From a bacterium (GTDB lineage Bacteria > Auribacterota > UBA3054): a stretch of 43,649 bases of DNA. The notes beneath the pieces are model-generated. The model worked only from the letters and a program-made list of their open reading frames with translations. It did not search any database and was not told the origin of the DNA. The position numbers and the translations under genes were made by a program. Positions 10,247-39,391 of this stretch are shown piece by piece (position 1 is the stretch's first letter; each line of letters opens with the position of its first letter). The stretch lies in assembly GCA_017650925.1 (NCBI GenBank), contig JAGCDY010000018.1:1-43649 (forward strand), written 5' to 3'.

Positions 10247-11797
10247 TTATTTTTCCAGGAATTTCCTGATCCTGGAGGCGACCACGTCGCTGCCGGCCAT
10301 GGCCACGAACCAGCCGGCCCTGGGGCCGCGGTCTCTGCCAAGCGTCACCCTGTAGAGCGCCTTGCACAGCGCGCCCATGGAGATGCCTTCCGAATTTGCG
10401 ATGCCGTAGATCATCTGGTGGATGGCATTGCCGTCCGCTTCCTTGTCTTTCTCGAGGCCGTCCGCGATGAGGGACAAGGCCTTCTTTTCCTCCGGCGTGA
10501 TCTGGGAAGCGATCTCGGCCGGCGTTTCGTCTAAAAGCGTGAAGATGAATTCCGGCGTGGCGTAGCGCTTCAGCCACTCGTCGGCGTAGTGGCAGCGTTC
10601 AAGAAGAGCCGCCTCGTCGCTGTATTTGAAGCCGGTGCGCTCTAAGATCTTCTTGACCTTCTCGAAATCGCCGCCGGCAACCTGCCAGACGTTGACGAGA
10701 TGATTGAAGGGGATGTGTAGGGGAACGAAGCCGCCGGCCTGGGAAAGCTCGACGCTTCTGGCGTCACGCTGCTTCTTGCTTTCGTCGTCCACTTCGTCGA
10801 CCAGGTTAAGGAGCTGCGTAACGAGGTCCAGAGCCAGGCTGGCCTTGGGATTGGGGCGCGTGATGAAGTAACGCAGCACGTCGGGCGGAACGACTTCCAA
10901 AACTTCGTCGACGGAAACGACGTTACCTTTGCTGGAGCTCATGTCGCCCAGGCCTTTCAGTCTGATCCATTCATAGATGATGGGGAAGGGCTCGGTGCCG
11001 CCGTAGATCTTTCTTACGATCTCTTTGCCGGTGTCGTAGCTGCCGCCCTTGCCGCCGTGGTCTTTGCCGAACGGCTCGACGTCTACGCCCAGGGCCGCCC
11101 ATCTGGCTGGCCAGTCGGCGCGCCAGGTCAGTTTGCCGTTGCCGACGACGGGAACGGTGCGTTCCTTATCGCAGTGCGAGCAGTAGTAGGTGATCTCTTC
11201 CGTTTCCGGATGCCACGCCACAAGCTTCGTGGTCTTCATGTTGCCGCAGAGGCGGCAGTGAGGATTGAAGGGGCTCCAGTCCTCGCCGATCTCTTTGCCG
11301 GTGACTCTCGTTAAGATCTCGGCGATCTCGTCCCTGGCGTTCAGGGCCTGGATTATCTGTTTCTTCAAGACGCCGTCGCGGTAGAGCTCGCTGGCCCTCA
11401 CCACGTGCGCGTCTATTTTCAGTTTCTTGAGCGATTTGACGAACGGCTGCAGGAAGTATTCCGCGTAGGTCATGTCGCTGCCGTCGGGGGCCGGGATCTC
11501 GGAGAGGGGACAGCCGACGTACTTTTCGTAGACCGCGGGGTCCAGGAAGGGATAGACTTTCCTCAAGGCGTCGTAGTCGTCCGCCACGAAGATGAGCTTC
11601 GCCTCATGGCCGCGTTCCTTTAAGATGCGGTAGACGATGTCGGCGGTCAGGACTTCCCTTAAGTTGCCGACGTGGATGCGTCCGGAGGGAGAGATGCCGC
11701 TGGCGATGAGGAAGGGTCCGTTGCCTCTCTGCTGGAGCAGGAGGTCGACGGCTTTGTCGCCCCAATGGGCGCTTTGAGTTTTGATTTGTTCTGCCAT
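10247..11797 (-). CDS. lysS: Lysyl-tRNA synthetase, class I
   Basis: Charges tRNA-Lys with lysine. This is the rarer class I form (516 aa): a Rossmann-fold HIGH-type motif PSGRIHVGN at 37-45, the KMSKS-type DMSSSKGN near 285-292, and an inserted zinc-type region with CRLCGN and YCSHCD cysteine pairs. The class II motifs are absent. The ATG at 11797 lies about 30 bases after the predicted start of the promoter at 11834-11862 and has no Shine-Dalgarno sequence. Single-gene transcript ending at the shared terminator. Confidence 0.93.
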   Translation of the reverse strand: MAEQIKTQSAHWGDKAVDLLLQQRGNGPFLIASGISPSGRIHVGNLREVLTADIVYRILKERGHEAKLIFVADDYDALRKVYPFLDPAVYEKYVGCPLSEIPAPDGSDMTYAEYFLQPFVKSLKKLKIDAHVVRASELYRDGVLKKQIIQALNARDEIAEILTRVTGKEIGEDWSPFNPHCRLCGNMKTTKLVAWHPETEEITYYCSHCDKERTVPVVGNGKLTWRADWPARWAALGVDVEPFGKDHGGKGGSYDTGKEIVRKIYGGTEPFPIIYEWIRLKGLGDMSSSKGNVVSVDEVLEVVPPDVLRYFITRPNPKASLALDLVTQLLNLVDEVDDESKKQRDARSVELSQAGGFVPLHIPFNHLVNVWQVAGGDFEKVKKILERTGFKYSDEAALLERCHYADEWLKRYATPEFIFTLLDETPAEIASQITPEEKKALSLIADGLEKDKEADGNAIHQMIYGIANSEGISMGALCKALYRVTLGRDRGPRAGWFVAMAGSDVVASRIRKFLEK

Positions 11798-11917: not shown

Positions 11918-14900
11918 ATGAAACTAGTTGCTTTCCCCAATACGCCGCAGAAGCAGGTCTTCGCGGTGACCGGCCCCAGCGCCACTTTCGGTTCCTCACC
12001 TGACAACCCGATCTATTTGGAAGGACCCAATGTCAGCGATTATCAGGCGTCGCTCACTTATTCCGACGGCGTCTGGCTGCTTGAAAGTCTGGATGAGAAG
12101 AAGATACAGTGCGGAAGCGAAGCTTCCTCCAGCCTGAAACTGAAAGTCGGCCTGAAATTCTCTCTGGCCGGCGTCGATTTCCTTGTCCTCGACGTCATAA
12201 TGACCGAGGCGAAAGCGCCGAGCGAACCGGAACAGCCCCAGCAGATGCAGCCTCCTCCCGGCGGCGCCCTGCAGGTCATGCCGAACGGCATGCAGCAGCA
12301 AGGCTACCAGGTCGCTGTCGGCGGCCAACAGTGGGGGATGGCGGCGCCCGGAACTTTCGTAGATCCTTACGCCGGCTTCGTTGTTCAGGCCTCCGACACG
12401 TTAGCCAAACTGGGCTTGATCTTCTCCATCCTTGGCCCCCTGGTCCTGGGTGTCGGCGAATTGATAGGCCTTGTGCTCTGCGTCATCTCCATTTCCCGTC
12501 GCCGCAACACCGTGAGAGGCACGATCATGGCCTGGATCGGCGTGGTGCTCTCTTTGGTCTGGCTTATCATCATCGGTCTGGGGCTCTTCTACTTCATGAC
12601 GAAGGACACCAAAGTCCACAATGAGACGAAAGTGGTGGCCAGGCTGGAAAAGACGGTCATGGCGGAATACTACGTCAAGTACGCCGTGCTAGTCGACGAC
12701 GATGGCAATCTGATCGGCGAATTCGTGGAGCCCGACCGCTTCGCCGGCATCGCCGGAATAGACGTCAAGGCCAAGGAACTGGCCGAGAGTCCGCTGAGGG
12801 AAGGCTACAATTACTACTTCGAGAACGTTTCCGCCGACACTTTCACCATAACCGCTACGCCCCAAGTCTACAACGTGACGGGCAAAAAGACCTACTGGGT
12901 GAACGAAACGGGCATCATCGTCTCGGAAGATCTTAAGGGCTCTCGCTTCGAGGATGACCCCTTATCGAAGATCGAGGACATGGAAAACGTCCAGACGATC
13001 CCGCAGCGCTACGAGAAGGAACTGTCGGAGAAGCTGCTTTTCGCGGCTGAGCAGAACTTCAAGAACGAAAAATACGACCTCTGCCAGCAGATCATCGAGA
13101 ATCTGAAGAACAAATTCCCGTATTCCTCCGCCATGGCGAAGCTGAACGCCGTGGAAAAAGAGAACGCTCCTTTCCTGATGGAAGCCAAGGCCCACAGGCT
13201 GTATTCCGACGCCATGAATTACGTCAAGAGCGGAAGGAAGGATCCGGCCCTGGAGACGCTGAGGAACATCGCGGCGGATTTCCCGAACACCAGTACGGCG
13301 CAGGAAGCCAAGAATCAGGTCAACGCCCTGGCTCTGGAGTTGGCAAGCGCCGAACTTGCGCTGGCGAACGCTTACATCGAGTCCAATTTCTGGAATGCCG
13401 TGGAGGAATCTCTCGGAAAGATCGAGCAGAAATATCCCGAAGCCTTCGTGCAGGGCGACTTCAAGGACAAGGTCTCGGCCTGCCGCAAGCTCAGCCACGA
13501 CCTGAGGGACCAGTACGCCATGAATCTTCTGAAGAGCGCGGAGAACCTGGAACTGGCGGGCGACAACGTCCAGGCCTACAACGCCTATCTGCAGATCAGG
13601 GAGAGCTACGGCAATACGCCGGCCGCAAAGGACATCGACGCGGCCCTGGCGCGCCTCAACACGCAGATGAACGAGAAGACGGCCGAAAAATACATAGCCG
13701 ATATCATGAAGAACGTGGCTATGAGCAACGAGGTCGTCGTCGTGAACATGATTTCGCTCCTAAAGAACAGCTGCGGCGAGACCAAGGCCTACAAGCGGGC
13801 CGAGGAGATCCTCGAGAGGATCAGGAAGAACTGCACCGTCAGCGTCCTCAGCAAAGAAGTTGACAAGTTCATGGAGGAGAAAAATTACCAGTCCGCCAAG
13901 GACAGGCTCGAGCACATCATAAAGGAGAAGCCCGAGTCCTTCATGAAGATCAAGGATAAGCTTGAGCTCTGCCTGGTCAATAATTTCGACACCTACTACG
14001 CGAAGGGGGATTTCGACGAGGCCCTGGAAGCCTACGAACGCTACATGGACATGAACCCCATCCTGCCGGCCATAGACAGGGGAAAAGTCGACGAATGCTG
14101 CTACAAGAGCGGCGTGAGGCTCTATCAGCAGGGCGACATGCGGGACGCCGCGGACAAATTCGAGAAGTGCTATCCGGCCTATCTGAAAGACAACCAGTAC
14201 AACTTCATCGCCGGCCGCGCCAACGCTGTGATAAAGCACTGGGAGCCGGCGGCCAGGCACCTGATCGCCTGCAAGGACATAGAGGATCGCTACAAGTTCG
14301 ACCTCTGCACGGCCAGGGCTTATTCCATCGTCAACCTCTCCATGCGCCAGGAAAACAGGCTCATCGCCATGTTCGTCGCCAATCTTGATTTCCAGGAGAC
14401 CATCAGGGATTACAAGTGGATCAAGATCAACTACGCCAAACTGTCCGTCACGAACGACATCGAGAACGTCAGCAACGTCCTCATGAAGATCGACCGCGAG
14501 AAGACTTCCGGCGAGGTCGTCGTCACGCTGCAGAGGCCGGAGCCGGACGCGCAGAAACAGAATGCGAGCGCGACGGCCAGCGAAAGGGATAAGCTTGACA
14601 TGCAGGAGAGCCTCCTGAACGTCGACAGAAGCTATCAGAAGTCGCTGATGATCATAAACGACAGGATCCGCGAGCTGGAGCAGATACTGAACGAGATAAT
14701 CAGGACGAACGGCTCCAGCAAGCATATCGTCAGGGAGAAATTCAAGAAACAGATCGACCGCTTCAACCTGAGGATCAAGGAGCTTGAGATCATAGACAAG
14801 CGGGAAATGAAGGCCAACGAGGACATCCTAAAGCAGATCGACCGCGACATCGCCCATCACAACGCCGTGAGAGCCGATCTGAAGGCAATCCTTGAAAAGC

Positions 14901-15307
14901 GCAACGTGCCGGAATTGGGCGAGAGGCTCGTTTCCGTATCGAAAAAGATCGAAGAGTTGAAGAAGGTCAACAGGATGTTCAGGAAATTCTTCAACGACAG
15001 GAATCTCCGCAACGCCAAGATCGACCTCTTCCTGAAATCCATCGTCGACTCGGCTGAAAAGGAGACGCTGACTCCTGAGCAACTTTCGGAAGGCGCTGTG
15101 AAGATCAGAGGCTACTACACGAACGAGGACAAGACCTACATAGAGTGCGTCCGGAAATTCACAGAGTCACTTAACATCGACATCGACCTTTCCTCCCTGG
15201 AGGAATTCCTGCCGAAAGACAAGTCTGAAGCGAACAAGGCAAAGGCGGAGGCAGAGGCTGCTGCCAAGGCTCAGCAGCAACAGGCCCAGCCGCCGGAGCA
15301 GAAATAA
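11918..15307 (+). CDS. Giant FHA-like / DUF4190 / pilin-like / TPR / coiled-coil protein, paralog 1
   Basis: A 1129-aa protein of unknown function. Residues 1-95 look like an FHA fold, but the usual GR and SxxH phosphothreonine residues read GS (25-26) and SDYQ (40-43), so phosphopeptide binding is doubtful. A Pro/Gln/Met-rich linker spans 100-150. Two hydrophobic segments at about 165-193 and 203-227, split by SRRRNTVRG, resemble DUF4190. Residues 240-345 resemble pilin/GspG- or DUF2950-like domains (GYNYYF, TFTITATP, KTYWVNETG). TPR-like helical repeats run from about 355 to 870 and a coiled coil from about 896 to 1000, with an Ala/Gln-rich tail. Membrane topology is unclear. It is followed by its tandem paralog. 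It could be an envelope scaffold or secretion-related protein. Confidence 0.7.
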   Translation: MKLVAFPNTPQKQVFAVTGPSATFGSSPDNPIYLEGPNVSDYQASLTYSDGVWLLESLDEKKIQCGSEASSSLKLKVGLKFSLAGVDFLVLDVIMTEAKAPSEPEQPQQMQPPPGGALQVMPNGMQQQGYQVAVGGQQWGMAAPGTFVDPYAGFVVQASDTLAKLGLIFSILGPLVLGVGELIGLVLCVISISRRRNTVRGTIMAWIGVVLSLVWLIIIGLGLFYFMTKDTKVHNETKVVARLEKTVMAEYYVKYAVLVDDDGNLIGEFVEPDRFAGIAGIDVKAKELAESPLREGYNYYFENVSADTFTITATPQVYNVTGKKTYWVNETGIIVSEDLKGSRFEDDPLSKIEDMENVQTIPQRYEKELSEKLLFAAEQNFKNEKYDLCQQIIENLKNKFPYSSAMAKLNAVEKENAPFLMEAKAHRLYSDAMNYVKSGRKDPALETLRNIAADFPNTSTAQEAKNQVNALALELASAELALANAYIESNFWNAVEESLGKIEQKYPEAFVQGDFKDKVSACRKLSHDLRDQYAMNLLKSAENLELAGDNVQAYNAYLQIRESYGNTPAAKDIDAALARLNTQMNEKTAEKYIADIMKNVAMSNEVVVVNMISLLKNSCGETKAYKRAEEILERIRKNCTVSVLSKEVDKFMEEKNYQSAKDRLEHIIKEKPESFMKIKDKLELCLVNNFDTYYAKGDFDEALEAYERYMDMNPILPAIDRGKVDECCYKSGVRLYQQGDMRDAADKFEKCYPAYLKDNQYNFIAGRANAVIKHWEPAARHLIACKDIEDRYKFDLCTARAYSIVNLSMRQENRLIAMFVANLDFQETIRDYKWIKINYAKLSVTNDIENVSNVLMKIDREKTSGEVVVTLQRPEPDAQKQNASATASERDKLDMQESLLNVDRSYQKSLMIINDRIRELEQILNEIIRTNGSSKHIVREKFKKQIDRFNLRIKELEIIDKREMKANEDILKQIDRDIAHHNAVRADLKAILEKRNVPELGERLVSVSKKIEELKKVNRMFRKFFNDRNLRNAKIDLFLKSIVDSAEKETLTPEQLSEGAVKIRGYYTNEDKTYIECVRKFTESLNIDIDLSSLEEFLPKDKSEANKAKAEAEAAAKAQQQQAQPPEQK

Positions 15308-15310
15308 AAG

Positions 15311-15337
15311 AAGGCCTCCCCGGGGAGGCCTTTTTTT
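15311..15337 (+). terminator. Intrinsic terminator after paralog 1
   Basis: Perfect palindrome with arms AAGGCCTCCCC / GGGGAGGCCTT (15311-15332), followed by a T-run to 15337. The next gene starts only 16 bases later. Confidence 0.9.
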
Positions 15338-15352
15338 CGCAGTGATCATTTC

Positions 15353-18300
15353 ATGAAGCTAGTCGCATTCCCAAACACGCCAGATAAAAAGACCTTCACG
15401 GTAACTGGGATCAGCGCCACCATAGGGAGCGCGAAAGACAATTCCGTCGTCGTTAATGGCGAGGGTGTCAGCGATTATCAGGCTTCGCTCACGTATTCGG
15501 ACGGTGTCTGGCTAATTGAGAGCCTGGACGAAAAGCCAATCATTGCGGGAGGGGAGAACGCGCCCAGTCTGGAACTAAAGGCCGGATCTAAGTTCTCCAT
15601 TGCCGGGATAGAATTTCTCGTTCTGGACACCGGAGTGATCAAGGCCGAAGCGCCGGCTCTCGCCCCGGGAGGGAACCAGGTCGCGCTCGGCAACTCCAAT
15701 TACGGCGTGGCGGCGCCCGGCACTTTTTACGACCCATACGAAAGCTTCGTCATCCACACTTCCGACACGCTCGCGAAACTGGGACTTGTTTTCGCCGCCT
15801 TAGGCCCCTTCGTCATCGGTATCGGCGAGATCATAGGGCTTGTTCTCTGCATTCTTTCCATTTCCCGCGGCCGCAACACCGTGAGGGGAACGATCATGGC
15901 CTGGCTCGGCATAATCATATCCCTTGTTTGGTGCGCCGCCATAGGAATCGGCGTTTTCTATCTCACGACCCGGGACGTCCAGGCGAGCAACGAAAAGAGA
16001 GTCGCAATCAGGCTCGAAAAGACCGCCCTTGATGAATTTTACATAAAATACGCGGTCCTCATAGACGACGACGGCGACATGTTCGGCGAATTCGTCGGCC
16101 CCGAGCGTTTCGCCGCGATCGGCGGCCTGAACGCCAAGGTAAGGGAGCTGGGCGAAAATCCCATGCTCGACGGCTACAACTATTACTTCGACAACGTCAG
16201 CGCCGACACCTTCTCCGTTACGGCCGCGCCGCAAGTTTACGGCGTGACGGGGAAAAAGACCTACTGGGTGAGCGAATCCGGTATCGTTGTCTCGGAAGAC
16301 TTGAAGGGCGGACGTTTCGCGGATGATCCTCTTTCCAAGACGGAGAACGTTGAAAAGATCCAGGCGATCTTTGCGAAGTACGAAAGGACGCTTTCCAAAA
16401 AACTGCTTTCCGCCGCCGAAAAAAATTTCAAAGCCGGGAATTACCGCCTTTGCCAGCGGATCCTTGAAAACTTAAGGAACATGCTCCCGAATTCCTCCTC
16501 CATGGCGAGGCTTTCCGCCATGGAAAAAGAGAACGAAAGCTTCCTTGCGGAAGCCGAGGCGGAAAGGCTTTGCACCGACGCCGAAAATTACATAAGGAGC
16601 GGTAAGAAGGATCCGGCGCTCGTGATGCTGAGGGCCGTCGCCGCAGATTATCCGAAAACGAAGGCCGCGCAGGAGGCGGCATCCAAAGTCAAAGCCCTTT
16701 CCCTGGAACTGGCTGAGGCGGAACTTAAGCTGGCGAGCGCTTATATCGAGTCGAACTATTGGAACGCCGTGGAGGAATCGCTTTCCAAGATCGAGCGGCT
16801 GTATCCCGAAGCCATCGCGCAAGCCGATTTCAAGGATCGGGTCTCGATTTGCCGCAAAACTAACCATGACAGAAGGGACCAATATGCCCTGGATCTTCTT
16901 GCCGAGGCGGAAAAACTTGAGTTCAGGGAAGAAACTGTTCTCTCTTACAACACCTATCTTCAGATCAAGGAAAATTACGGCGACACTCCGGCCGCCAAGG
17001 ACATAGATTCCGCCCTGGAACGTCTGAAGTCCCAGATGAACGAACAGACGGCTGAGAAGTACATTGCCGAGATCATGAGGAACGTGGCCCTGAGCAACGA
17101 GGTCGTGGTCGTCAATATGGTCTCGCTCATAAAAAACAGCTGCGGGGACACAAAAGCCTACAGACGCGCCGCCGACGTTTTGGAAAGAGCGAGAAGGGAC
17201 TGCACGGTAAGTCTCCTGGACAAGGAAGCCGACGGATACATGGCGGGAGGCCATTACAAGTCCGCTAGCGACCGCCTTGAGAATATGCTGAAGGAGAAGC
17301 CGGAATGCTTCGTGAACATAAAGGGCAAATTCGAGACCTGCCTTGTCAAAAATTTCCACGACTATATGTCGAGCGAGGATTTTGAGGAGGCTCTGGAATC
17401 GTACGACCGCTACATGGACATGAATCCCTCCTTCCCGGCCATAGAGAAGGAGAAGGTCGACGAATGCCTCTACAAGAGCGGCCTGCGACTCTTCCAGCAG
17501 GGAAACATGAGGTTGGCAGCCGCCAGGCTTGAGATGTGCTATCCGACTTATCTGAACGACCAGCAGTACAACTTCGTCGCCGGCCGCGCCAACGCCGTAA
17601 TCAAGCACTGGGAGCCGGCCGCCAGGCATTTGATCGCCTGCACCGATCTGGGAGAAAGACAGAAACTCGACCTTTGCATCGCACGCGCTTATTCCATCTC
17701 GAATCTCCGGCTCCTCCTAGAGAACAAGCTGATCGCCATGTTCGTCGCCAATCTGGAATTTCAGGAGACCGTCAGGAACTACAAATGGCTCAAGATCGTT
17801 TACGCCAAACTGTCCGTCACGAACGACATCGAGAATGTCAGCAACGTGAAGATGAAGATAGACAGGGAAGCGACCACCGGCGAAGTGATAGTCACAGTGG
17901 AAAGCCCCGAATCAATAGTGCTGAACCAGTTTGAAGCGGAAAGTATGAGCCGCTTCGAACGGGCGGAAAACAAGGAATCGCTGCTGAAGAAGGAAATAAG
18001 CTACCAGAAGTCCCTTGAGGTAATGCTCGACAGGATCCGCGAACTGCAGGAGAAACTCGAGCAAATAATGAAGAGCCACGGCAAGGAAAAGGATCCGCTC
18101 AGGGAAGACCTGGAGATGCTGGTCGACAGATTCAACATAAGGATCAAGGAACTTGAGGTCATAGACAAGCGAGAGAGGGAAGCCAACGAAGACATAATAA
18201 GTCAGCTGGACCGTGACATAATCCATCACAACGCCGTTCTGAGCGACCTTAGATCGATTCTTTCCATGCGCAGCGACAAAACGCTTCTCGAGAAATCGCT

Positions 18301-18598
18301 GAACGTGACGAAAAAGATCGGCGAGCTTAAGGCGGTCAGGCGTAATTTAAGAAGATTCATAAACGAAAGGAACGAACGCAACCACAAGATAGTTGTTTTC
18401 CTAAAGACGCTTCCCGAACCGATCCTAATGGAGAACGTGACTGTTGAGCAGGTAGGGGACGCCGCCGAAAAGATCAGAGGCTACTACTTGGAAGAGAACA
18501 AGAATTTCATGGAATGTGTCGAGCGGTTCGTCGGTCTCGTGAACATCGACATCGACCTGTCAGAACTCGAGCAATTCCTTCCGAAAGAGAAGGAATAA
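15353..18598 (+). CDS. Giant FHA-like / DUF4190 / pilin-like / TPR / coiled-coil protein, paralog 2
   Basis: A 1081-aa tandem paralog of the preceding gene with the same domain order: FHA-like 1-92 (again GS and SDYQ in place of the binding residues), membrane segments at about 142-206, a pilin-like domain, TPRs and a coiled coil. It lacks the Pro/Gln-rich linker and the Ala/Gln tail, which accounts for its shorter length. Identity is very high in patches, for example YAKLSVTNDIENVSNV, where even the DNA is nearly identical (14430-14477 versus 17802-17850), pointing to a fairly recent duplication or gene conversion. ATG 15353 matches the MKLVAFPNTP start of paralog 1. I see no Shine-Dalgarno sequence and no convincing promoter between the genes. 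Confidence 0.7.
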   Translation: MKLVAFPNTPDKKTFTVTGISATIGSAKDNSVVVNGEGVSDYQASLTYSDGVWLIESLDEKPIIAGGENAPSLELKAGSKFSIAGIEFLVLDTGVIKAEAPALAPGGNQVALGNSNYGVAAPGTFYDPYESFVIHTSDTLAKLGLVFAALGPFVIGIGEIIGLVLCILSISRGRNTVRGTIMAWLGIIISLVWCAAIGIGVFYLTTRDVQASNEKRVAIRLEKTALDEFYIKYAVLIDDDGDMFGEFVGPERFAAIGGLNAKVRELGENPMLDGYNYYFDNVSADTFSVTAAPQVYGVTGKKTYWVSESGIVVSEDLKGGRFADDPLSKTENVEKIQAIFAKYERTLSKKLLSAAEKNFKAGNYRLCQRILENLRNMLPNSSSMARLSAMEKENESFLAEAEAERLCTDAENYIRSGKKDPALVMLRAVAADYPKTKAAQEAASKVKALSLELAEAELKLASAYIESNYWNAVEESLSKIERLYPEAIAQADFKDRVSICRKTNHDRRDQYALDLLAEAEKLEFREETVLSYNTYLQIKENYGDTPAAKDIDSALERLKSQMNEQTAEKYIAEIMRNVALSNEVVVVNMVSLIKNSCGDTKAYRRAADVLERARRDCTVSLLDKEADGYMAGGHYKSASDRLENMLKEKPECFVNIKGKFETCLVKNFHDYMSSEDFEEALESYDRYMDMNPSFPAIEKEKVDECLYKSGLRLFQQGNMRLAAARLEMCYPTYLNDQQYNFVAGRANAVIKHWEPAARHLIACTDLGERQKLDLCIARAYSISNLRLLLENKLIAMFVANLEFQETVRNYKWLKIVYAKLSVTNDIENVSNVKMKIDREATTGEVIVTVESPESIVLNQFEAESMSRFERAENKESLLKKEISYQKSLEVMLDRIRELQEKLEQIMKSHGKEKDPLREDLEMLVDRFNIRIKELEVIDKREREANEDIISQLDRDIIHHNAVLSDLRSILSMRSDKTLLEKSLNVTKKIGELKAVRRNLRRFINERNERNHKIVVFLKTLPEPILMENVTVEQVGDAAEKIRGYYLEENKNFMECVERFVGLVNIDIDLSELEQFLPKEKE

Positions 18599-18631
18599 AA
18601 AAAGGCCTCCCATCCGGGAGGCCTTTTTTTT
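18599..18631. terminator. Bidirectional terminator between paralog 2 and mreB
   Basis: Stem AAAGGCCTCCC / GGGAGGCCTTT (18601-18611 with 18616-18626), loop ATCC, T-run to 18631 and an A-run on the left. It serves both convergent transcripts. The stem shares GGCCTCCC with the terminator after paralog 1. Confidence 0.9.
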
Positions 18632-18644
18632 GGCGCGCTGTTTA

Positions 18645-19724
18645 TCAGAGATTGATGAGCGCCAGTTTTTCCAGCACGTCCTCTCTTTCAACGATAAAGC
18701 CCGTGCCCTTGGCGACGGCCAGAAGCGGCTCGTCCGCGATGGAGACGGAAAGGCCCGTGTCGTTCTCGATGCGCTTGTAGAGTCCTCTTAAGAGCGCGCC
18801 GCCGCCCGCCAGCATGAGACCGTGGTCGAGAAGGTCGGCCGAGAGTTCCGGAGGGCACTGTTCCAGCGCGTCCCTGACGGAGTTGACGATGGCGTCGACC
18901 GGATCCTTCAGGGCCTGGCGGATCTCGACGCTGCTGACCGTGATGGTCTTCGGCAAGCCGACGTTGAGGTCGCGGCCTCGGACTTCCTTTTTCATTTCGT
19001 TTTCGCCCAGGGGATAGGCGGAGCCGATGGCGATCTTCAGTTCTTCCGCGGTTTGTTCGCCGATAAGGAGGTTGTACTCGCGCTTCATGTACTGGATGAT
19101 GGCGTCGTTCATCTCGTTGCCGGCCACTCTCAAGGATTTGGAATAGACCGTGCCGGAAAGGGAGGTGATGGCGACTTCCGTCGTGCCGCCGCCGATGTCG
19201 ATGATCATGTTGCCGGAGGGATCGTGAACGGGAAGGCCGCTTCCGATGGCGGCCGCCATGGCCTGCTCGATGCAGTAGACTTTCCTGGCGCCGGCTCTTT
19301 CGGCCGCGGATTTGACGGCCTGGCGCTCAAGCTCCGTGATGGAGGAGGGGACGGCGATGACGATCCTCGGCGGAACGACGGAATGCCTGCTGTGGGCGCG
19401 GCGGATGAAGGTGCGGAGCATCTCTTCCGTGACGTTCGGGTTCGCGACCGCGCCGTCTTTCATCGGACGCAGGGTGTCTATTATGCCGGGCGTGCGGCCG
19501 AGCATGCACTGGGCTTCTTTTCCGATGGCGATTATTTCGCCGGTCTTGTTGTTGATGGCGACGATCGTGGGCTCGTTAACGACGACGCCCATGCCGGAGA
19601 CATAGACGATCGTGTTGGCAGTGCCGAGGTCGACGCCGATGTCGGAGGCCAGAGCGCCCAGGAATTTTCCCGAGACGTTCAGGAAGGAATCCCTCACTCC
19701 TGAACCGAAAGACCTGTTCTTCAT
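18645..19724 (-). CDS. mreB: Rod-shape-determining actin homolog MreB
   Basis: Cytoplasmic actin-like filament protein that guides the elongation machinery (359 aa, usual length). Phosphate-1 loop DIGVDLGTANT near 28-38, the PSSITELER block, phosphate-2 IDIGGGTTEVAI near 165-176, and the adenosine motif LAGGGALLRG near 302-311. The start at 19724 overlaps the uvrA stop by 4 bases and has an AGGGAG site; a longer in-frame opening to 19871 is uvrA coding sequence and is rejected. No mreC, mreD or rodA follows. It ends at the convergent terminator. Confidence 0.95.
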   Translation of the reverse strand: MKNRSFGSGVRDSFLNVSGKFLGALASDIGVDLGTANTIVYVSGMGVVVNEPTIVAINNKTGEIIAIGKEAQCMLGRTPGIIDTLRPMKDGAVANPNVTEEMLRTFIRRAHSRHSVVPPRIVIAVPSSITELERQAVKSAAERAGARKVYCIEQAMAAAIGSGLPVHDPSGNMIIDIGGGTTEVAITSLSGTVYSKSLRVAGNEMNDAIIQYMKREYNLLIGEQTAEELKIAIGSAYPLGENEMKKEVRGRDLNVGLPKTITVSSVEIRQALKDPVDAIVNSVRDALEQCPPELSADLLDHGLMLAGGGALLRGLYKRIENDTGLSVSIADEPLLAVAKGTGFIVEREDVLEKLALINL

Positions 19725-23173: not shown

Positions 23174-24271
23174 TCAGTCGTGGATATGGACGACGGTGCC
23201 TTCTTTCACAAGGGAGTAGAGTTCCTCGACGTCCTCGTTTTTCATCCTGACGCAGCCGGCGCTGCTGGCTTTTCCGACCGTGTCGGGTTCCCAGGTGCCG
23301 TGGATGCCGAAGCCGGGAGAGCTGATGGCCATCCAGCGGGTGCCGAGGGCGTTCTCAGGATCGCCGTAGGGGATGGGCTTAGAGTTGTCCTTGTACCAGA
23401 TGGGCTCTTTCTGCTTCAGGTTGATTATGAAGTCGCCCCTCGGGGTGTTGTCGTTCTTGCCCGTGCCGACGGGATAGCTTTTGAAGAAATTGGTCTGGCC
23501 GTTCCAGATCCTGTAGAGTCTGAGCTTGTATTCCGGAATGGAGACGTCGATCAGATAGTTGGAGAGATCGATCCTCAGGCGCTGGTTGATCCTTATGCGG
23601 TCGGAATTCATCCTGTTGACGAAAAGGATGGAGTCGGAAGTCGTTTTGTATTTTCTGGCGATGACGTTCAAAACTTCGCCGGAATGCACGACGTGGTTCG
23701 TGATGAAGTCGAGCCTGGCTTCGAAAAGCTCGGCCAGGTTGCGGTCGCCGATGTAGGCTTCCGCCTGCTTCGCCTCGGCGCTTTCAGGGAAAGCGTCTAT
23801 AAGGGCCTGGCGGGTAGAGTCGGCCTTCTGCTGGTCGCCCTTGACGTTCGCGGCTTTCAGCTCTTCCACGAGGAAAGATCTGGAAGCTTCGTTCTTGGGA
23901 TATTTCTCCCTGAAGGCGGCCTTGGCGGCTTCCTTGTCTTTCGCGAAGGCTATGAGCTCGTATTCGGCCCTGGCTTTGATCTCGGGGTTCGAGTGGTTTT
24001 CCAAGACCTTGCGCCAGGTGTCCTCACTGCTCTTGCCGAGCGCGGTCTCGCAAAGAGCCTGCTTGTAGAGGGCGTCGGCTTTGGAGGCCTGGTTGTCGTC
24101 GTATTTGCGGACGGCTTTCTTGAAGACCGGCAGGGCGTCGCTGTAGCGCTTTTCCTGGAGAGCCTTCTCAGCCTCGGCCAATTTTTCCTCTATGGGCCTG
24201 CCGGTTGCCAACAATATGGCGACGGTGCCGGCGATGCCCAAAAGCACGACTATCAGAAAAACTTTTTTCAT
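23174..24271 (-). CDS. LysM-containing L,D-transpeptidase (YkuD domain)
   Basis: Predicted periplasmic cell-wall enzyme (365 aa) that forms peptidoglycan cross-links or attaches proteins. Residues 4-23 form a signal or anchor helix. Residues 28-185 carry helical TPR-like repeats, 190-236 a LysM-type glycan-binding module (VVHSGEVLNVIARKY ... INQRLRI), and 240-365 the YkuD catalytic domain with H324 in GIHGTWEP and nucleophile C340 in SAGCVRM. The combination of TPR-like repeats, LysM and YkuD is uncommon by my recollection. AGGA site about 13 bases upstream; it follows the secreted 541-aa protein by 25 bases. Confidence 0.88.
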   Translation of the reverse strand: MKKVFLIVVLLGIAGTVAILLATGRPIEEKLAEAEKALQEKRYSDALPVFKKAVRKYDDNQASKADALYKQALCETALGKSSEDTWRKVLENHSNPEIKARAEYELIAFAKDKEAAKAAFREKYPKNEASRSFLVEELKAANVKGDQQKADSTRQALIDAFPESAEAKQAEAYIGDRNLAELFEARLDFITNHVVHSGEVLNVIARKYKTTSDSILFVNRMNSDRIRINQRLRIDLSNYLIDVSIPEYKLRLYRIWNGQTNFFKSYPVGTGKNDNTPRGDFIINLKQKEPIWYKDNSKPIPYGDPENALGTRWMAISSPGFGIHGTWEPDTVGKASSAGCVRMKNEDVEELYSLVKEGTVVHIHD

Positions 24272-24296: not shown

Positions 24297-25922
24297 TTAG
24301 TCTTTTTTGGATTTTTTCTGGTTCTTCTGATTTTTCTGATCCTTGGAGGGCTCTTTGCCCTTCTGGGCCTTGGCCTTCTTCTGCTCCTCGATGTCGCTGG
24401 CGACGGAGTCGGTGGTCAGAGTGTTGAAGACAAGGTAGGGGATGCGGTTGCGGAAGGTCTTGTAGTTGCTGCCGATGTCCTCGGCTTCGGCGGATTCTTC
24501 CTCATCCTTGGAATCGCCGTCCTTCTTGTCTTTCTTATCCTTCTTGTCCTTGTCGTCTTTTTTCGGCTCGGTCTTTTTGCCCATGAAGGAGTCGCGGTGC
24601 AGACTGGCGAAATAGTTGTCGTAGTCTTTGTCAAAGTTGCGGTTCTGCTCTCTGCTCTTGCGCATGAGGTATATAAGAGGCAGGGCGTCCTTGATGGAAA
24701 GATAATCGTAGACGGCCGCGGACTGGCGCAGATAGTAGTAAAGCTTGTAGTTGTCGGTGGGAGGGCCGTTCTTTGTGAACTGGTCGATGTTGATGATGGC
24801 TGATTTTTCCAGCGGGAGAGACTTGAACGGCAGGGCGCCGGACTTCATCTTGAGCAGCATGTCGTAGGTGACAGGCTTGTTCTGGAAAGTTTTGAGCTGG
24901 ACCGGACCGCCTTCCGTTATGACGGAGCTGAGGTCGCTGCAGTAAGCGGCGAAGCCGACGGTCAGGAACTCATTGACGGAGCCCTTGGAGTTCGTGATGG
25001 ACAAGAATTCATCGAGGACAGCCGCGGCCACGGCGTAGGCGAAGGCCTCGCCGTTCCAGTCTTTGTTGATCGGCGTGAGATAGACGTAGAATTCCCTGTA
25101 GCCCTTGGCGGTGTAGATCGTCTGAACGGGGGAGTTCCTGAGTCCGGTGCCTTTCAGCATGGTCCAGTCTTCGCTCTTGGTGACGAAGTAAACTTTGGCT
25201 CTCAGTTTGTTCAGCCAGTTGATGAAGTCGGTCATGACAAGCGCTTCGGTCGCCCTCTCGAAAGCGGAGTCGCCGGCCGAGAGGATCTGGTCTATGCCGT
25301 AGAACTCAGCGGTATCGACTTCGGTCGCCTTGCCATTTTTGGGGACTTTGCAGGTCTTGGGATAGAACGCGATGAAACGCGTGCTTTCGGCCAAGACCGG
25401 CTTCTGGCCCTTCATGGCGCTTTTAAGGCGCGAAGCGTGGTTGCTGTCGCCGAGCTTCGCGATCTTGATGTCGTTCTGGCGGAAGGCAGTGTAGGTCTTC
25501 TGGATATCCTTGTCGTCCGTAATGGAGATCTTGTTGCAGTAAGAGCGGGCGCCGCGGTCGCTGCCGGCCTTGGCGTTCAGCCTCCCTATGTATTCTTTCC
25601 ACTTCGGGCAGGTGTACTGGGGGCCCGCGGCGGCTTTGTCGGCGTCGGCCTGGGAAAGGGCGCCGGCGCCTTCCGCCGTGTTTTCGAGCAGTTCTTTCTT
25701 GGCGTTATCATCCAGCGCTTCGGACACGGCTTCCGCGGCCGGGGCGGCCGGAGCGGACGCGACGTCTTCGCTTTCGCCGGATTCTTCTTCCGTCACTTCC
25801 TCGATGGCGTTGCCGTCCTCGTCGAACTGGACGTCCTCATCGTCGAACTCCTCGTCGGCGAAGGCAACGGACGTTGTCAGGGCGAGGGAAACTAAAAGGA
25901 GATAAAGAAGATTCTTTTTCAT
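24297..25922 (-). CDS. Secreted protein of unknown function, gluzincin-like without active site (tandem member B)
   Basis: A 541-aa exported protein I do not recognise. Signal peptide 1-22 (cleavage after AFA), then an acidic Glu/Ala-rich stretch to about 105, a globular core about 105-440, and a lysine/aspartate tail with repeated KKD triplets and a QKNQKNQKK end. The core shares layout with its upstream neighbour (25956-27455). A helix around 298-303 (AAAVL) followed by LTVGFAAYCSD near 320-330 sits where peptidase-MA-like proteins have HExxH and the WLxEGxAxY helix, but the catalytic residues are absent. This assignment is inference from pattern only. The charged tail could bind nucleic acid or polyanions. 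Confidence 0.6.
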   Translation of the reverse strand: MKKNLLYLLLVSLALTTSVAFADEEFDDEDVQFDEDGNAIEEVTEEESGESEDVASAPAAPAAEAVSEALDDNAKKELLENTAEGAGALSQADADKAAAGPQYTCPKWKEYIGRLNAKAGSDRGARSYCNKISITDDKDIQKTYTAFRQNDIKIAKLGDSNHASRLKSAMKGQKPVLAESTRFIAFYPKTCKVPKNGKATEVDTAEFYGIDQILSAGDSAFERATEALVMTDFINWLNKLRAKVYFVTKSEDWTMLKGTGLRNSPVQTIYTAKGYREFYVYLTPINKDWNGEAFAYAVAAAVLDEFLSITNSKGSVNEFLTVGFAAYCSDLSSVITEGGPVQLKTFQNKPVTYDMLLKMKSGALPFKSLPLEKSAIINIDQFTKNGPPTDNYKLYYYLRQSAAVYDYLSIKDALPLIYLMRKSREQNRNFDKDYDNYFASLHRDSFMGKKTEPKKDDKDKKDKKDKKDGDSKDEEESAEAEDIGSNYKTFRNRIPYLVFNTLTTDSVASDIEEQKKAKAQKGKEPSKDQKNQKNQKKSKKD

Positions 25923-25955: not shown

Positions 25956-27455
25956 TTATTCAGTTTTGGCTTCTTCTTTTATTGCTTCGGCGGCGGGAGT
26001 GCTTTCGGGCGTCGCTTCCGGAGTCGGCTCTCCGCCTTCCTCGGGCTTCGCTTCGGCAGGAGTGCCCTCGGCGGGCGTTTCCTTAGCTTCGCCAGCTGCT
26101 TCGGGCGCGGCTTCGGCGTTCTCGGCGGGCTTAGCCTCGCCTTCCTCGGGAGCGGCTTCGCCGTTGGCCTCGGCGGCTTTCTTCGCTTCGGCTTTGGCTT
26201 TCTGGGCCTTTTGAATGTCTTCGGTCATCTTCTCCTGGGTCATTTCGTAGAAGAGCCTGTTGGAGGCCTTCTCCAGGAATTTCAGATCGGCTTCGCCGAC
26301 CACGACGACGTTGGTGGAAGGTTTCTGTTCCTTGACTTCGGTGCCTATGATGCCGCGCTGCATCTCGCAGTAGGAAAGGCTGAACTCTTTGTCAAAGCTG
26401 CGGCCCTGGGAGAGCGAGCGGATGAGGCTGAGCATGCCGAGCGGGGACTCTTTCCAGAGCTTCTCGACAAGGCCTCTGGATTCGCGGAGGAAATAGTATT
26501 TCTGTTCCGGCATCTGAGGCATGGTCTGGGCTTCCTTAAGTTCGGAGAAGGGAAGAAGGCGCTTGGCCTGGAGGGGGAGCATGATGCCGACTTTCGGCCT
26601 CTTGATCTTCTTGGCCTTGCCGTTTATGACGACTTCCCTGACCTGCACGGGAAGGAAAGCCGGGGGAGCGACGCAGACTTCCAGCCCGGAGAGATAGCCG
26701 GCGATGCCGGTCATCAAAAAGAGCGGGATCTTGGAGTCCGGGCGGCCGGAAAGCACGCGGCCGTATTCCTTCACGATCTGTTCCGTCACCGCGTAGCACA
26801 GGGTCTGGGGAACGTATTCGGAGCAGCTGACGTCGTCGAGGATGAAGATCTCACGCGAGAGGTCGCTGGTGCAGTAGTTGGCGCACATTTGGTCAGCCGA
26901 TTTGGCGTCTCTCAATCTCAGCCACATCGGCTGGTTGGGGATCACCGTGATGCGGCAGGGAATGTCGGACCAGTCCATAAATTCGCCGACTATCAGTTTT
27001 TCCGTTACGGCCACGTAGTTGGATTCCGCTGTGTCGAGGAGCATCTGGAGTCTTTCGGCGTTGGGGCTTCTCTTCGTCTTCTCCTCAACTACGGAGAAGG
27101 AGTAGCTCGGGCCGGTGATTATGAAATACTCGCCGGTCAGGACGATGTCCGGGCCGTACATGGAGCGGTACTTCTTGGTCTTGGTGAACTCAATGGCGCG
27201 TTTCGGGATGGGGCTCTTGTCGGCGGGCGCGACGGTCTCGGTGTCGTAGAGGCGGAAACGGTTGTAGTATTCGTTCACGCCTTCCGGGGTGTCGAGGCCG
27301 AAAAGACGGGTGTAGAGCGTAATGGCCGTGCCGCTGGACTCCACCTGGCCGACGGTCTTTTTGACCTGCAGAACTTTTGGCGGTTCGTCATGGGAAGCCA
27401 TGAGGGCGCTTGTGAAAACAAGGGCTAGAAGGGCAAAGATGCTGAGATTTTTCAT
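25956..27455 (-). CDS. Secreted protein of unknown function, gluzincin-like without active site (tandem member A)
   Basis: A 499-aa exported protein. ATG 27455 is chosen over an in-frame GTG at 27467 because GAGGAAG lies just upstream and it gives a clean signal peptide (1-20, cleavage near LMA). The core (about 25-400) includes TEQIV at 224-228 and FLMTGIAGYLSG near 246-257, which align with the HExxH and WLxEGxAxY elements of peptidase-MA-like gluzincins but lack both zinc histidines and the glutamate. The last about 95 residues are low-complexity Ala/Glu/Pro. It lies 36 bases after dut and 33 before its apparent paralog, in the long rpsO-mreB run. Confidence 0.6.
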   Translation of the reverse strand: MKNLSIFALLALVFTSALMASHDEPPKVLQVKKTVGQVESSGTAITLYTRLFGLDTPEGVNEYYNRFRLYDTETVAPADKSPIPKRAIEFTKTKKYRSMYGPDIVLTGEYFIITGPSYSFSVVEEKTKRSPNAERLQMLLDTAESNYVAVTEKLIVGEFMDWSDIPCRITVIPNQPMWLRLRDAKSADQMCANYCTSDLSREIFILDDVSCSEYVPQTLCYAVTEQIVKEYGRVLSGRPDSKIPLFLMTGIAGYLSGLEVCVAPPAFLPVQVREVVINGKAKKIKRPKVGIMLPLQAKRLLPFSELKEAQTMPQMPEQKYYFLRESRGLVEKLWKESPLGMLSLIRSLSQGRSFDKEFSLSYCEMQRGIIGTEVKEQKPSTNVVVVGEADLKFLEKASNRLFYEMTQEKMTEDIQKAQKAKAEAKKAAEANGEAAPEEGEAKPAENAEAAPEAAGEAKETPAEGTPAEAKPEEGGEPTPEATPESTPAAEAIKEEAKTE

Positions 27456-27490
27456 ACTCTTCCTCACTTCTGGTTATCTCCAATATAATT

Positions 27491-31602: not shown

Positions 31603-34338
31603 ATGAAATCTCATTTTCTGAGCACCATCTGCCTGGCCGTCCTTTTCGCGGCCGTCTGCCTGTCCGCGGCTGAAAACACGGCCCAGACCGCCTCTTCGCT
31701 TTTCCAGCAGGGCGTCACGGCCTACGAAACCGGCGACTACAAGGGCGCTCTCAAGCTGTTCCGCCAGATGCAGGAGGAATTCCCCCGTTCCGCCAGGGCC
31801 GTGAGAGGCTGGGAATATATCGCGCTTTGCGAGAACAAGCTCGGCGATCCGTACGCGGCCTTCGAGGCCTACCAGGAGATCTGGGACAACCACAAAGAGT
31901 TCACGAAGATGTCGGTCATCACCCGCAACCAGATGAGGATCGGCAACCATTACATGGAGTACAAGCGCTATTCCGTGGCTGAGAAGATCTTCAGCAAGAT
32001 CCTTGAGAATTCCCCTTACGGCGAAGCTTCCCCGGCCGCCCAGTATTCTCTCGGCATGGCCCAGTACAACCTTAAGAAGTACGGCCCGGCCAGGGAATCT
32101 TTTGAGACCGTCTGCCAGAATTTCCCGACCTCACAGCTGGTCGACGATTCGGCCTTCATGCTCGGCATAGTCGATTCCGCGGCCGCCGTGGAAGCCGATT
32201 ACGACCAGACCTCTACCGACCGCGCCATAGCCAGTTTCCGCAATTACATCAGGGAATTCCCGACCGCTGAGCACGTGGGCGACGCCCAGGCTCACATCCG
32301 CGCCCTCAGGGACCGCAAGGCCCAGTCCCTCTACGACCAGGCCTACTATTACGACTATTCCGGCCACGCCAAGTCCGCCATCATGCACTACGAGCTGCTC
32401 GTCTCCGAGTATCCCGACACCGATTGCGCCGACAAGGCGAAAATGCGCCTGGCCGCCCTGAAGGGCGAGCCTGTCCAGGGCATGCCGAAAGACACGGTCA
32501 CCTACGTCGATCCGACTCCGGACGCCGGCGCCGTCAGCTCCCAGAAGGAACAGGACGAAGCCGTCAGAAGCTTCAGGGAAAGCGGAAGCTCTTTTGACCA
32601 GCCGAAGGCCCAGAGCGCGCCCTTTGACGAGAACAGAGCGCCGGCTTTCAGCGAGACGACCCCCGAGGTCACCTCTTCCGGCAGCGCTTTCGACACCGCG
32701 CCCCAGAGCAATTATCCTCTGAAAAAGGACCCCGCCAAGACCGAGGACCAGCGCGTGGAAAGGACCGCGGCTCTTACCGGCTCTAGCTCGACGATGGCCG
32801 CCACCGGCGATGACTGGCGCCAGAATCAGTCCCGCCAGGTCATGAACGAATACCTGAAGGATCCCTCCAAGAAGCAGGAACTGACCTCCTTCATGAAGGA
32901 CGAATATGAAAGGGAAGCCGAGGCCCAGCAGGCCAGCGCGGCGCTCTTAAAGCTCTACCAGAGCAGCAATCCCGACGCTGTGCCCCCGCCGGTGAGCGAA
33001 GTTTCCGCGGCCAGCTACGTCAAAGAGCAGGTGAAGAGGGAAGAGAAACCGCTTGGCGAAACTATCGTCAAAGAGATCGCGAAAGAAGAGAAAGAGACCA
33101 GGCCGGTCCAGAAGATCGAGACCGTCTGGGCTCCTGTTCCCGGCACGGAAGTGAAGACCCAGCCCGTTTCTCAGCCCGTCTCCGTCGCCGTGACCGAGAA
33201 GCCCAAAGTTCAGGAGCCGACCTTCACCGCCCCCGCTCCCCAGACGCAGAAGACCACCTATACGAGGCCCACGAGCCGCGTCCAGTCTTCCGATTGGCAG
33301 ACGCTCTCCCAAGCCGAGAATTTCGGAGATGAAGTCGTGACCAGCGATCCGCCCAAGTACAGCACCGTCAGCCAGTCTGAAATGGCCAGCTTGAACAACG
33401 GCAGTTCCGTCGTGCTGAAAGAGCCTCCCAAAGTGACCTACGGCGGTTCCGCCCCGGTCTTCAGGGACGTTTCCGGCAACGTTTCCGGCACCACGACGGT
33501 AGTCGTCTCCGAACCCGTTTCCGAGCCCTCTGCCAGCAAGCCTTCCTTTGCGACTTCCACTCCGTCTTTTCAGGCCGAGACCAGCGCTGCTTCGGTAAAG
33601 GTAACGGCCGAGACCACCAAGCCCAGCTTCGAGGTCCAGACCGTTTCCGAGCCTACCGTCCAGCTCTCCACCGCGAACGTCACGGCGGAAGCGAAGGGCA
33701 ATCCCGCCGACGAAATAGTGAACAGCATCATCCCGCTGGAAGCCGAAGTCAAGGAACAGGCCATCAAGATCAACGTCACGACCAACACCGGACTCAGGGT
33801 GACCAGGGAAGTCAGCAAGCCGGTCTTTGAGGAAGAAAAGAAGACTGAAGATCCCAAGCCCGGCACCTCGGTCTCCTTCAAGGTCGGCAAAGCCGAAAGC
33901 GAAAAGACCACCGGCGCCACCTCCCAGGACATCACTTCCGTCCTGCCCAAAGGCCTTGCCGATGACAACGCGGACCTCAACAAAGACGCCATCGTAAAGG
34001 CTCCCGAAGGCACGGTCATCAGAACTATGCCGGAAGCCGGCCGCGTTTCCACCGCCATCAGCCAGGAACAGTACCAGAGAACGGTGGAAGAAAAGAACGT
34101 CAAGGATTATTCCAGCGAGACGACGCTCATAAATTCCTATAAGAAAGCTTACTCCCTGGTGCAGAAAGCGGAAGCCTACCAGAACCAGAACGATTCTGTC
34201 AACGCGCGCTTCTACTACGGCCAGGCCTTGGACGCCTTCACGGCCCTTAAAGCCCAGGCTCCTCCCAACTGGCGCCACATGGACGTTCTCGACACCCGTA
34301 TCCAGAAGTGCCGCGAGGAACTTCACCGCATCGACTAA
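31603..34338 (+). CDS. Exported BamD/YbgF-like TPR protein with long disordered region
   Basis: A 911-aa periplasmic protein. Signal peptide 1-22 with no lipobox cysteine (cleavage after LSA), so unlike true BamD it is not a lipoprotein. Residues about 26-290 are TPR repeats of BamD/YfiO type (FQQGVTAYETGDYKGALKLF, KKYGPARESFETV, YPDTDCADKAKMRL). Residues about 300-800 are Ser/Thr/Pro/Glu-rich, likely disordered, with repeated VSEP and KPSF elements. The last 80 residues form another helical TPR-like pair. AAAGGAGA site upstream. Its place before an LptE-like lipoprotein and the Kdo/Lpt genes suggests an outer-membrane assembly role, which is inference. Confidence 0.65.
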   Translation: MKSHFLSTICLAVLFAAVCLSAAENTAQTASSLFQQGVTAYETGDYKGALKLFRQMQEEFPRSARAVRGWEYIALCENKLGDPYAAFEAYQEIWDNHKEFTKMSVITRNQMRIGNHYMEYKRYSVAEKIFSKILENSPYGEASPAAQYSLGMAQYNLKKYGPARESFETVCQNFPTSQLVDDSAFMLGIVDSAAAVEADYDQTSTDRAIASFRNYIREFPTAEHVGDAQAHIRALRDRKAQSLYDQAYYYDYSGHAKSAIMHYELLVSEYPDTDCADKAKMRLAALKGEPVQGMPKDTVTYVDPTPDAGAVSSQKEQDEAVRSFRESGSSFDQPKAQSAPFDENRAPAFSETTPEVTSSGSAFDTAPQSNYPLKKDPAKTEDQRVERTAALTGSSSTMAATGDDWRQNQSRQVMNEYLKDPSKKQELTSFMKDEYEREAEAQQASAALLKLYQSSNPDAVPPPVSEVSAASYVKEQVKREEKPLGETIVKEIAKEEKETRPVQKIETVWAPVPGTEVKTQPVSQPVSVAVTEKPKVQEPTFTAPAPQTQKTTYTRPTSRVQSSDWQTLSQAENFGDEVVTSDPPKYSTVSQSEMASLNNGSSVVLKEPPKVTYGGSAPVFRDVSGNVSGTTTVVVSEPVSEPSASKPSFATSTPSFQAETSAASVKVTAETTKPSFEVQTVSEPTVQLSTANVTAEAKGNPADEIVNSIIPLEAEVKEQAIKINVTTNTGLRVTREVSKPVFEEEKKTEDPKPGTSVSFKVGKAESEKTTGATSQDITSVLPKGLADDNADLNKDAIVKAPEGTVIRTMPEAGRVSTAISQEQYQRTVEEKNVKDYSSETTLINSYKKAYSLVQKAEAYQNQNDSVNARFYYGQALDAFTALKAQAPPNWRHMDVLDTRIQKCREELHRID

Positions 34339-34349
34339 AGGTGACAGAC

Positions 34350-34928
34350 ATGAAACTTTTATACTTAACGGCCGCCGCTATCCTTCTCACGCTTCTTTCC
34401 GGATGCGAGAGGGAAACTTCCGCCGACGCGCCCATTACGGTCCTGGGCTACACCCTGGGCTCGCCGCAGCGTGAGGACAACATCAAGAAGCTGCACATCC
34501 CGCGCATCTCTTATGTTCCCGACAAAGTCAACGAGCCGCACCTTCTGATGGAGGTTACGAACCAGATCATCAGCGAGTTCACGAAGGAGCAGACCTACGA
34601 AGTGGTGCCTACCGCGGAAGAGGCTGACGGCGAACTGAGAGTCCAGCTCGTCGACCTGAATTTCAGGCCGACCCAGTTCGTGGACAAGACCGTCAACGCC
34701 AACGCCGCCGGCGTGGCCACGGCCTTCAGGGCGATCGTCTACGCCAACATCACGATGTACGAGTACCAGGACGGCGAACCGGTCGCCATCTGGAGCAGGA
34801 ACAGGGTCAGGGGCAAATACGACCTTCTGACGACCGACGACATCTCCCAGACGCGCCACCAGGCCATCCTTCTGGCGTGTTCGGACCTCGCCCAGCACAT
34901 CTGCGAACAGGCGGTCGAGCGCTGGTAA
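34350..34928 (+). CDS. LptE-like LPS-assembly lipoprotein
   Basis: A 192-aa lipoprotein: type II signal with lipobox LLSGC (C19). The body has the LptE-family pattern: a KKLHIPRISYVPDKVNEP strand, then the VTNQIISEFTKEQTYEVV helix-strand, and paired strands RAIVYANITMYE and AIWSRNRVRGKYDLL. LptE plugs LptD in the outer membrane during LPS insertion; LptD is not in the window. ATG 34350 is preferred (AAAGG site, signal peptide at the very start) over an in-frame ATG at 34308 lying inside the previous gene. Context with kds and lpt genes supports the role. Confidence 0.75.
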   Translation: MKLLYLTAAAILLTLLSGCERETSADAPITVLGYTLGSPQREDNIKKLHIPRISYVPDKVNEPHLLMEVTNQIISEFTKEQTYEVVPTAEEADGELRVQLVDLNFRPTQFVDKTVNANAAGVATAFRAIVYANITMYEYQDGEPVAIWSRNRVRGKYDLLTTDDISQTRHQAILLACSDLAQHICEQAVERW

Positions 34929-34979
34929 ATTTGAAAAACAATTAACAACAAATAAACAAAATAAATTAAGGAGACAAAT

Positions 34980-35210
34980 ATGTCCAAAGAATGCGATATC
35001 TGCGGCAAGAAGCCCTCTGTCGGCAAAAAGATCATCCGTCACGGTATTCCGAAAAAGAAAGGCGGCATCGGTCTGCACACCACCGGCATCTCGGTCCGCC
35101 GCTTCATGCCGAACCTTCAGAAGGTCCGCGTCAAAACGGAAGACGGCACTATCCTGACCGCCACCGTCTGCGCCCGTTGCATCCGCTCCGGCAAAGTGAC
35201 GAAGGCCTGA
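34980..35210 (+). CDS. rpmB: 50S ribosomal protein L28
   Basis: A 76-aa large-subunit protein of the zinc-binding type: CDIC near the N-terminus and CARC near the C-terminus form a four-cysteine site, with RRFMPNLQKVRV between. AAGGAGA site upstream. A ribosomal gene embedded in an LPS operon; rpmG, its common partner, is not seen. Confidence 0.95.
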   Translation: MSKECDICGKKPSVGKKIIRHGIPKKKGGIGLHTTGISVRRFMPNLQKVRVKTEDGTILTATVCARCIRSGKVTKA

Positions 35211-35218
35211 CAGAGGTT

Positions 35219-36828: not shown

Positions 36829-36833
36829 TAAGT

Positions 36834-37790: not shown

Positions 37791-37792
37791 TT

Positions 37793-39379: not shown

Positions 39380-39391
39380 AAGGTAACGCCC

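Follow-up and report, generated by a model that had tools for sequence, protein, structure and literature searches.

A tandem pair of large membrane-anchored proteins with degenerate FHA domains in a rumen bacterium of the Auribacterota, putative copies of an envelope scaffold

Closest described systems and the window locus

T2SSG is a periplasmic family, and the known TPR proteins of the BamD/YbgF/CpoB type are periplasmic as well. Inner-ring proteins of the T3SS (YscD, PrgH, and MxiG) combine an N-terminal, cytosolic FHA fold, whose phosphothreonine (pThr)-binding residues are poorly conserved, with a membrane segment and a large periplasmic part, and mutating the corresponding FHA residues of PrgH had no effect on secretion (PMC3635987). 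In mycobacteria, the pseudokinase MviN recruits the FHA domain of FhaA (PMC12599244), and the pair has a role in the envelope (PMC12599244, PMC11898655).

We analyzed a stretch of 43,649 nucleotides, referred to below as the window, from a rumen bacterium whose named relatives are ruminant-gut assemblies. As shown in Table 1, it carries two adjacent genes whose products share the above-mentioned features of the T3SS inner-ring proteins, the cytosolic position of the FHA fold and the large periplasmic part being presumed, and the FHA domain of PrgH/YscD represents their nearest described analogy. They differ from the inner-ring proteins in that this part comprises a DUF2950-like domain, TPRs, and a coiled coil, with no ring-building match in Pfam scans. 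With BamD (YfiO) and YbgF/CpoB they have the TPR subtype in common, but unlike BamD, they are membrane anchored, are about four times longer, and carry no N-terminal lipoprotein signal. A DUF4190-T2SSG fusion from a sister genome (L116:1339-2052) likewise places a small head domain directly behind a DUF4190 anchor; it lacks FHA, TPR, and coiled coil, however, and in the window proteins it is DUF2950, not T2SSG, that the head matches. As with FhaA and MviN, an FHA protein and a pseudokinase occur in one cell, but whereas the FHA domain of FhaA is recruited by phosphorylation, here the FHA binding set is incomplete and the pseudokinase gene is not a neighbor. Membership in a T3SS was rejected, as FliP was found in 0 of the 15 genomes of the order while control genomes were positive.

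The initial annotation regarded the architecture as new. As far as the sources examined show, this holds for the arrangement, which is undescribed as a whole, since no characterized family that we found covers the entire protein, but the parts themselves are known. In the literature searched, DUF4190 was not mentioned and DUF2950 was mentioned in one rhizobial genome survey.

Table 1. Features of the gene pair (positions in the window; residues of each protein)
Feature	Residues	Position	Strand	Remark
Copy 1 (P0001), whole gene		11918..15307	+	1129 aa
Copy 1, degenerate FHA	1-94	11918..12199	+	Arg to Ser, His to Gln
Copy 1, DUF4190-like anchor	161-226	12398..12595	+	positive loop RRRNTVRG
Copy 1, middle domain	227-348	12596..12961	+	DUF2950-like; pilin-like element order, putative
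Copy 1, TPR solenoid	358-800	12989..14317	+	BamD/YfiO type
Copy 1, C-terminal helical coiled coil	900-1099	14615..15214	+	
Terminator-like hairpin and T tract right after copy 1		15306..15337	.	
Copy 2 (P0002), whole gene		15353..18598	+	1081 aa
Copy 2, degenerate FHA	1-94	15353..15634	+	Arg to Ser, His to Gln
Copy 2, DUF4190-like anchor	139-204	15767..15964	+	
Copy 2, middle domain	205-326	15965..16330	+	DUF2950-like
Copy 2, TPR solenoid	336-778	16358..17686	+	
Copy 2, C-terminal coiled-coil region	878-1075	17984..18577	+	by alignment to copy 1
Terminator-like hairpin and T tract right after copy 2		18597..18630	.	stem nearly the same as that of copy 1

The gene pair and its family

The two proteins are 63% identical, and both ORFs were also found in seven further species of this genus. 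In copies 1 and 2, synonymous changes far outnumber nonsynonymous ones, with whole-gene dN/dS values of 0.12-0.21. These data indicated that both genes are real and under purifying selection, in agreement with their first description as adjacent paralogs of more than 1000 aa. When closely related species were compared, constraint was strongest in the membrane and middle parts and usually weakest in the coiled coil, which also shows the lowest similarity between branches of the family. For copy 1 of G005 versus G007 (L075, L006), synonymous divergence amounted to ~0.4 in the FHA domain, linker, and coiled coil but to ~0.02-0.07 in the membrane, middle, and TPR parts, an unevenness that suggests recombination between lineages.

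The pair is flanked by a divergent gene at 10247-11797, which we take to be lysS, and by a convergent gene at 18645-19724, presumably mreB, both names coming from reading the sequence and not from a profile search. Guilt by association with these genes was given little weight: mreB is convergent, lysS is divergent, and in G004 the neighbor is not mreB. The terminator-like hairpin (GGCCTCCC) is nearly the same 3' of both copies and has a third match at G000:C1:7139-7172. Farther along the window lie a gene for a protein with LysM and a YkuD L,D-transpeptidase domain (23174-24271, minus strand) and three long ORFs for which Pfam gave nothing at an E value of 0.01 (24297-25922, 25956-27467, and 41774-43621, all minus strand). 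An LPS export/Kdo cluster spans 31603-40659 on the plus strand and encodes a YfiO-TPR protein of 911 aa, LptE, a cytidylyltransferase, a DAHP_synth_1 protein (KdsA-like), an SIS-CBS protein, an HAD hydrolase, LptC, two LptA-like proteins, and an ABC ATPase (LptB-like). On contig G000:C37, a LysM pseudokinase is encoded at L131:3876-5753 (minus strand); it has no HRD Asp and shows an apparent membrane segment and LysM repeats.

Every genome of the order (15 of 15) carried the family, as did 1 of the 29 phylum genomes outside the class (G026); in our sample of 44 genomes of the phylum, order and class comprise the same 15. A third, distant paralog, the A form, is found in the window genome (C23:12986-16171, 31% identity); this form occurs in one copy per genome and is more distant than the tandem copies. 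Some sister genomes hold an additional B form. Tandem forms are limited to the window's genus, with 1 to 3 copies per species; the contigs read show a single copy in G004 and in G006, two copies in G007 and the window genome, and three in each of G002 and G005. The third copy has lost its FHA domain, retains the anchor, middle domain, TPR, and coiled coil, and shows a dN/dS of 0.43, indicative of relaxed constraint. In the tree, all tandem copies fall into one well-supported clade and the B forms into another, to which a long-branch warning applies. We read the tandem pair as a duplication, within the genus, of a family that occurs across the order and not as a stand-alone pair.

In this genus, the A form lies in a same-strand block with maf-like, inositol-monophosphatase, PFK, GspF, and GspK genes and two N_methyl pseudopilin genes. 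The sister family f2 retains the maf-like and phosphatase genes but not the T2SS genes, and in G013 a phosphatase-like gene comes next. The maf genes and the phosphatases of relatives were named from sequence, and the phosphatase, PFK, and T2SS genes of the window genome were named by Pfam. Thus, co-occurrence in relatives, a point raised with the initial annotation, extends to maf and inositol-monophosphatase genes adjoining the A form in most genomes, but to the T2SS block in this genus only, on the contigs read. No neighbors common to the A form and the tandem copies that would point to a process were seen on these contigs.

Domain assignments

Profile evidence makes the FHA assignment secure. 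Copy 2 matches PF00498 at 21.2 bits, over the Pfam cut-off of 20.7, and copy 1 scores 18.6 bits in the protein search (under the cut-off) and 23.6 bits in the genome search (over it). Sister-family members reach 31-56 bits, their FHA domains also match Yop-YscD_cpl (Pfam) over its cut-off, and the family profile retrieves the FHA structures of GarA, EmbR, and OdhI from the PDB at E values of 1e-5 to 3e-7. The reported loss of the binding Arg and His in both copies was borne out by the alignment. Judged from the same alignment, loss of pThr residues is not confined to the window's two copies: the full Arg/Ser/His/Asn set occurs in no aligned family member, the second copies of sister species keep Arg and have lost His, A forms keep His, and B forms of f2 keep Ser and His. 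The FHA domain is nevertheless constrained, with dN/dS values of 0.09-0.11 in copy 1, ~0.2 in copy 2, and 0.14-0.27 in the A form. Constraint despite incomplete binding residues points to a structural FHA domain, as in YscD/PrgH of the T3SS. The suggestion that the domain has become a pure interaction module fits lost residues in a retained fold, but the loss is not special to these copies. No FHA domain outside the family was found in the genomes of the order; we interpret a short match at the end of contig G013:C40 as the beginning of a family member. In the full-length AlphaFold model of copy 1, most of the first 360 residues have a pLDDT of less than 50; the alignments used for AlphaFold did not contain the distant A and B forms.

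Residues 95-160 of copy 1 form a linker. In sister families the linker holds a four-cysteine zinc ribbon, which in the G010 B form exceeds the Pfam cut-off, and a cysteine-rich, zinc-ribbon-like stretch lies between FHA and anchor in A or B forms of f2 to f4 (L080, L083, L084, L086, L087, and L090). The ribbon is absent from the window's genus and is taken to have been lost there. The anchor that follows consists in 23 of 23 aligned members of two hydrophobic stretches, the first of 28 residues, separated by a loop of +3 to +6, and it has invariant Gly-Pro, in the first stretch, and Gly positions. This anchor, with its two hydrophobic parts and the positive loop between them, agrees with the original DUF4190 label, but the profile matches are subthreshold (PF13828, 15.9 and 10.5 bits in the window copies and 29.9 in the best relative, against a cut-off of 35).

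The middle domain had been described as pilin-like, and this description found no confirmation by profile or fold. DUF2950 (PF11453) matched instead in 17 of the 19 members scanned (best E value, 2.9e-9), the window copies lying under the cut-off and the match spanning just the last part of the profile (~206-255 of 274). Pilin profiles (N_methyl, T2SSG, and pilin) gave no match to the members' middle domains except for ComP at an E value of 0.11 in one, and the middle-domain profile found nothing below an E value of 0.4 in the PDB. A separate AlphaFold model of the domain (pLDDT, 47) draws a helix of ~50 residues, the first half of which is the membrane stretch, followed by four strands; its Foldseek matches (RAD51 and others) were treated as meaningless, with none below 0.001. 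The fusion at L116:1339-2052 (G010; 237 aa) is independent of the family and has both halves over Pfam cut-offs, and its product is predicted to be a membrane-anchored pseudopilin-like protein. The pilin-like reading rests on the low-confidence element order and on this DUF4190-T2SSG fusion elsewhere, and we leave it open. Of the earlier picture, in which a cytosolic-looking and a pilin-like domain are joined across a membrane, there remains an anchor linking the FHA domain to a large second part, the pilin being unproven.

The TPR and coiled-coil assignments stood up to scrutiny. The YfiO profile matches the ~440-residue TPR stretch at 38.3 and 31.9 bits (cut-off, 25), the subtype by profile is that of BamD/YbgF/CpoB, and the model of copy 1 shows a fairly confident solenoid of helical hairpins over residues 371-790 (pLDDT, ~64-90). 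Several cysteines in this region are unpaired. Membership in BamD itself was rejected (57.7 and 43.6 bits, under the NCBI BamD cut-off of 81.4). A Foldseek search with the full model returned general TPR proteins, including a flagellar periplasmic scaffold chain of C. jejuni at 7e-4, and is not specific. Residues 900-1099 of copy 1 are modeled fairly confidently as long helices, part of which show a heptad-like periodicity.

A putative envelope scaffold and its alternatives

Domain order, the anchor with its positive loop, the incomplete FHA set kept under selection, and the distribution of the family are established at the level of sequence. Our best explanation, which we hold tentatively, is that the two proteins represent copies, specific to this lineage, of an envelope scaffold that is anchored in the inner membrane of a diderm host and occurs throughout the order, Omp85, secretins, and Lpt genes having been found in the genome. 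The loop between the hydrophobic stretches would be cytosolic, and because it is positive, the C-terminal ~900 residues (middle domain, TPR, and coiled coil) would lie outside the cytosol, in the periplasm. The N terminus would lie inside, as judged by the FHA domain and, where sister families have one, by the zinc ribbon. With the N terminus in and the C-terminal part out, the first hydrophobic stretch would have to form a hairpin. The FHA domain may then dock a partner without phosphothreonine, and the TPR solenoid and coiled coil may form a long arm that binds periplasmic or outer-membrane partners. We speculate that the copies form assemblies among themselves and with the A form, which would fit a copy number that changes while the single-copy paralog is kept. 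Also in favor of the scaffold are the periplasmic nature of known TPR proteins of this subtype, the sister-genome fusion in which a periplasmic family follows DUF4190, the third copy without FHA domain, and the uneven constraint along the proteins. Two findings stand against this topology. The low-confidence model draws the first hydrophobic stretch as a single helix, in which case the FHA domain would lie outside, and the unpaired TPR cysteines do not favor an oxidizing compartment. As for the envelope or secretion scaffold originally proposed, the scaffold is our best guess, but a dedicated secretion system finds no support, since FliP is absent and, on the contigs read, no genus but this one has the T2SS block next to its A form.

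The same cysteines, together with the presence of just two hydrophobic stretches, would suit a cytosolic scaffold tethered by two transmembrane helices, with the FHA domain and the TPR/coiled coil both in the cytosol. However, this would place a strongly positive loop outside in 23 of 23 members, contrary to the positive-inside rule, and we consider it rather improbable. An accessory to a T2SS or type IV pilus-like system, in which DUF4190 permanently anchors a pseudopilin-like head in the membrane and the TPR arm organizes pseudopilins or the secretin, appears unlikely. It would account for the same-strand block of the A form with GspF, GspK, and two N_methyl pseudopilins in this genus, for the secretins in 15 of 15 genomes, for the DUF4190-T2SSG fusion in the sister genome, and for the long helix and four strands of the low-confidence model, but PFK and inositol-monophosphatase genes intervene in the block, no T2SS genes adjoin the tandem copies or, in other families whose contigs were read, the A form, and neither a pilin profile nor a pilin fold matched convincingly.

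About as improbable as the cytosolic tether is a signaling receptor pair, in which the family and a LysM-bearing kinase-like protein would report on the cell wall. A single kinase-like protein, bearing LysM in the window genome, scores over the Pkinase cut-off in every genome of the genus, and the only FHA domains are those of the family; recruitment of the FHA domain of FhaA by the pseudokinase MviN provides a precedent (PMC12599244). Yet the catalytic Asp of HRD is missing in four kinase-like sequences (the window genome, G005, G008, and G010) and the FHA binding set is incomplete, so that neither half looks phospho-competent, and the genes are not neighbors. A related possibility to which we give a still lower probability is an assembly that is specific to the order and spans the envelope: FHA domains that do not read phosphate would build a ring or lattice in the cytosol and dock the LysM pseudokinase, and TPR/coiled-coil arms would cross the periplasm. 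Were it true, FHA lattice and LysM pseudokinase would be a phosphate-free relic of a kinase-FHA signaling pair, now structural. Finally, the copy number of 1 to 3 in the genus and the third copy, with its dN/dS of 0.43 and no FHA domain, might be explained by extra tandem copies drifting as duplicates without a function of their own; copies 1 and 2, however, are intact and constrained (dN/dS, 0.12-0.21), which makes this very improbable.

If the scaffold reading is true, the family would represent a further case, separate from the T3SS, in which an FHA domain has turned from a pThr reader into a structural dock, and this in a family that is universal in the group, where no other FHA protein was found. 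The analysis also provides a domain map for a conserved large protein, probably of the envelope, in uncultured gut bacteria.
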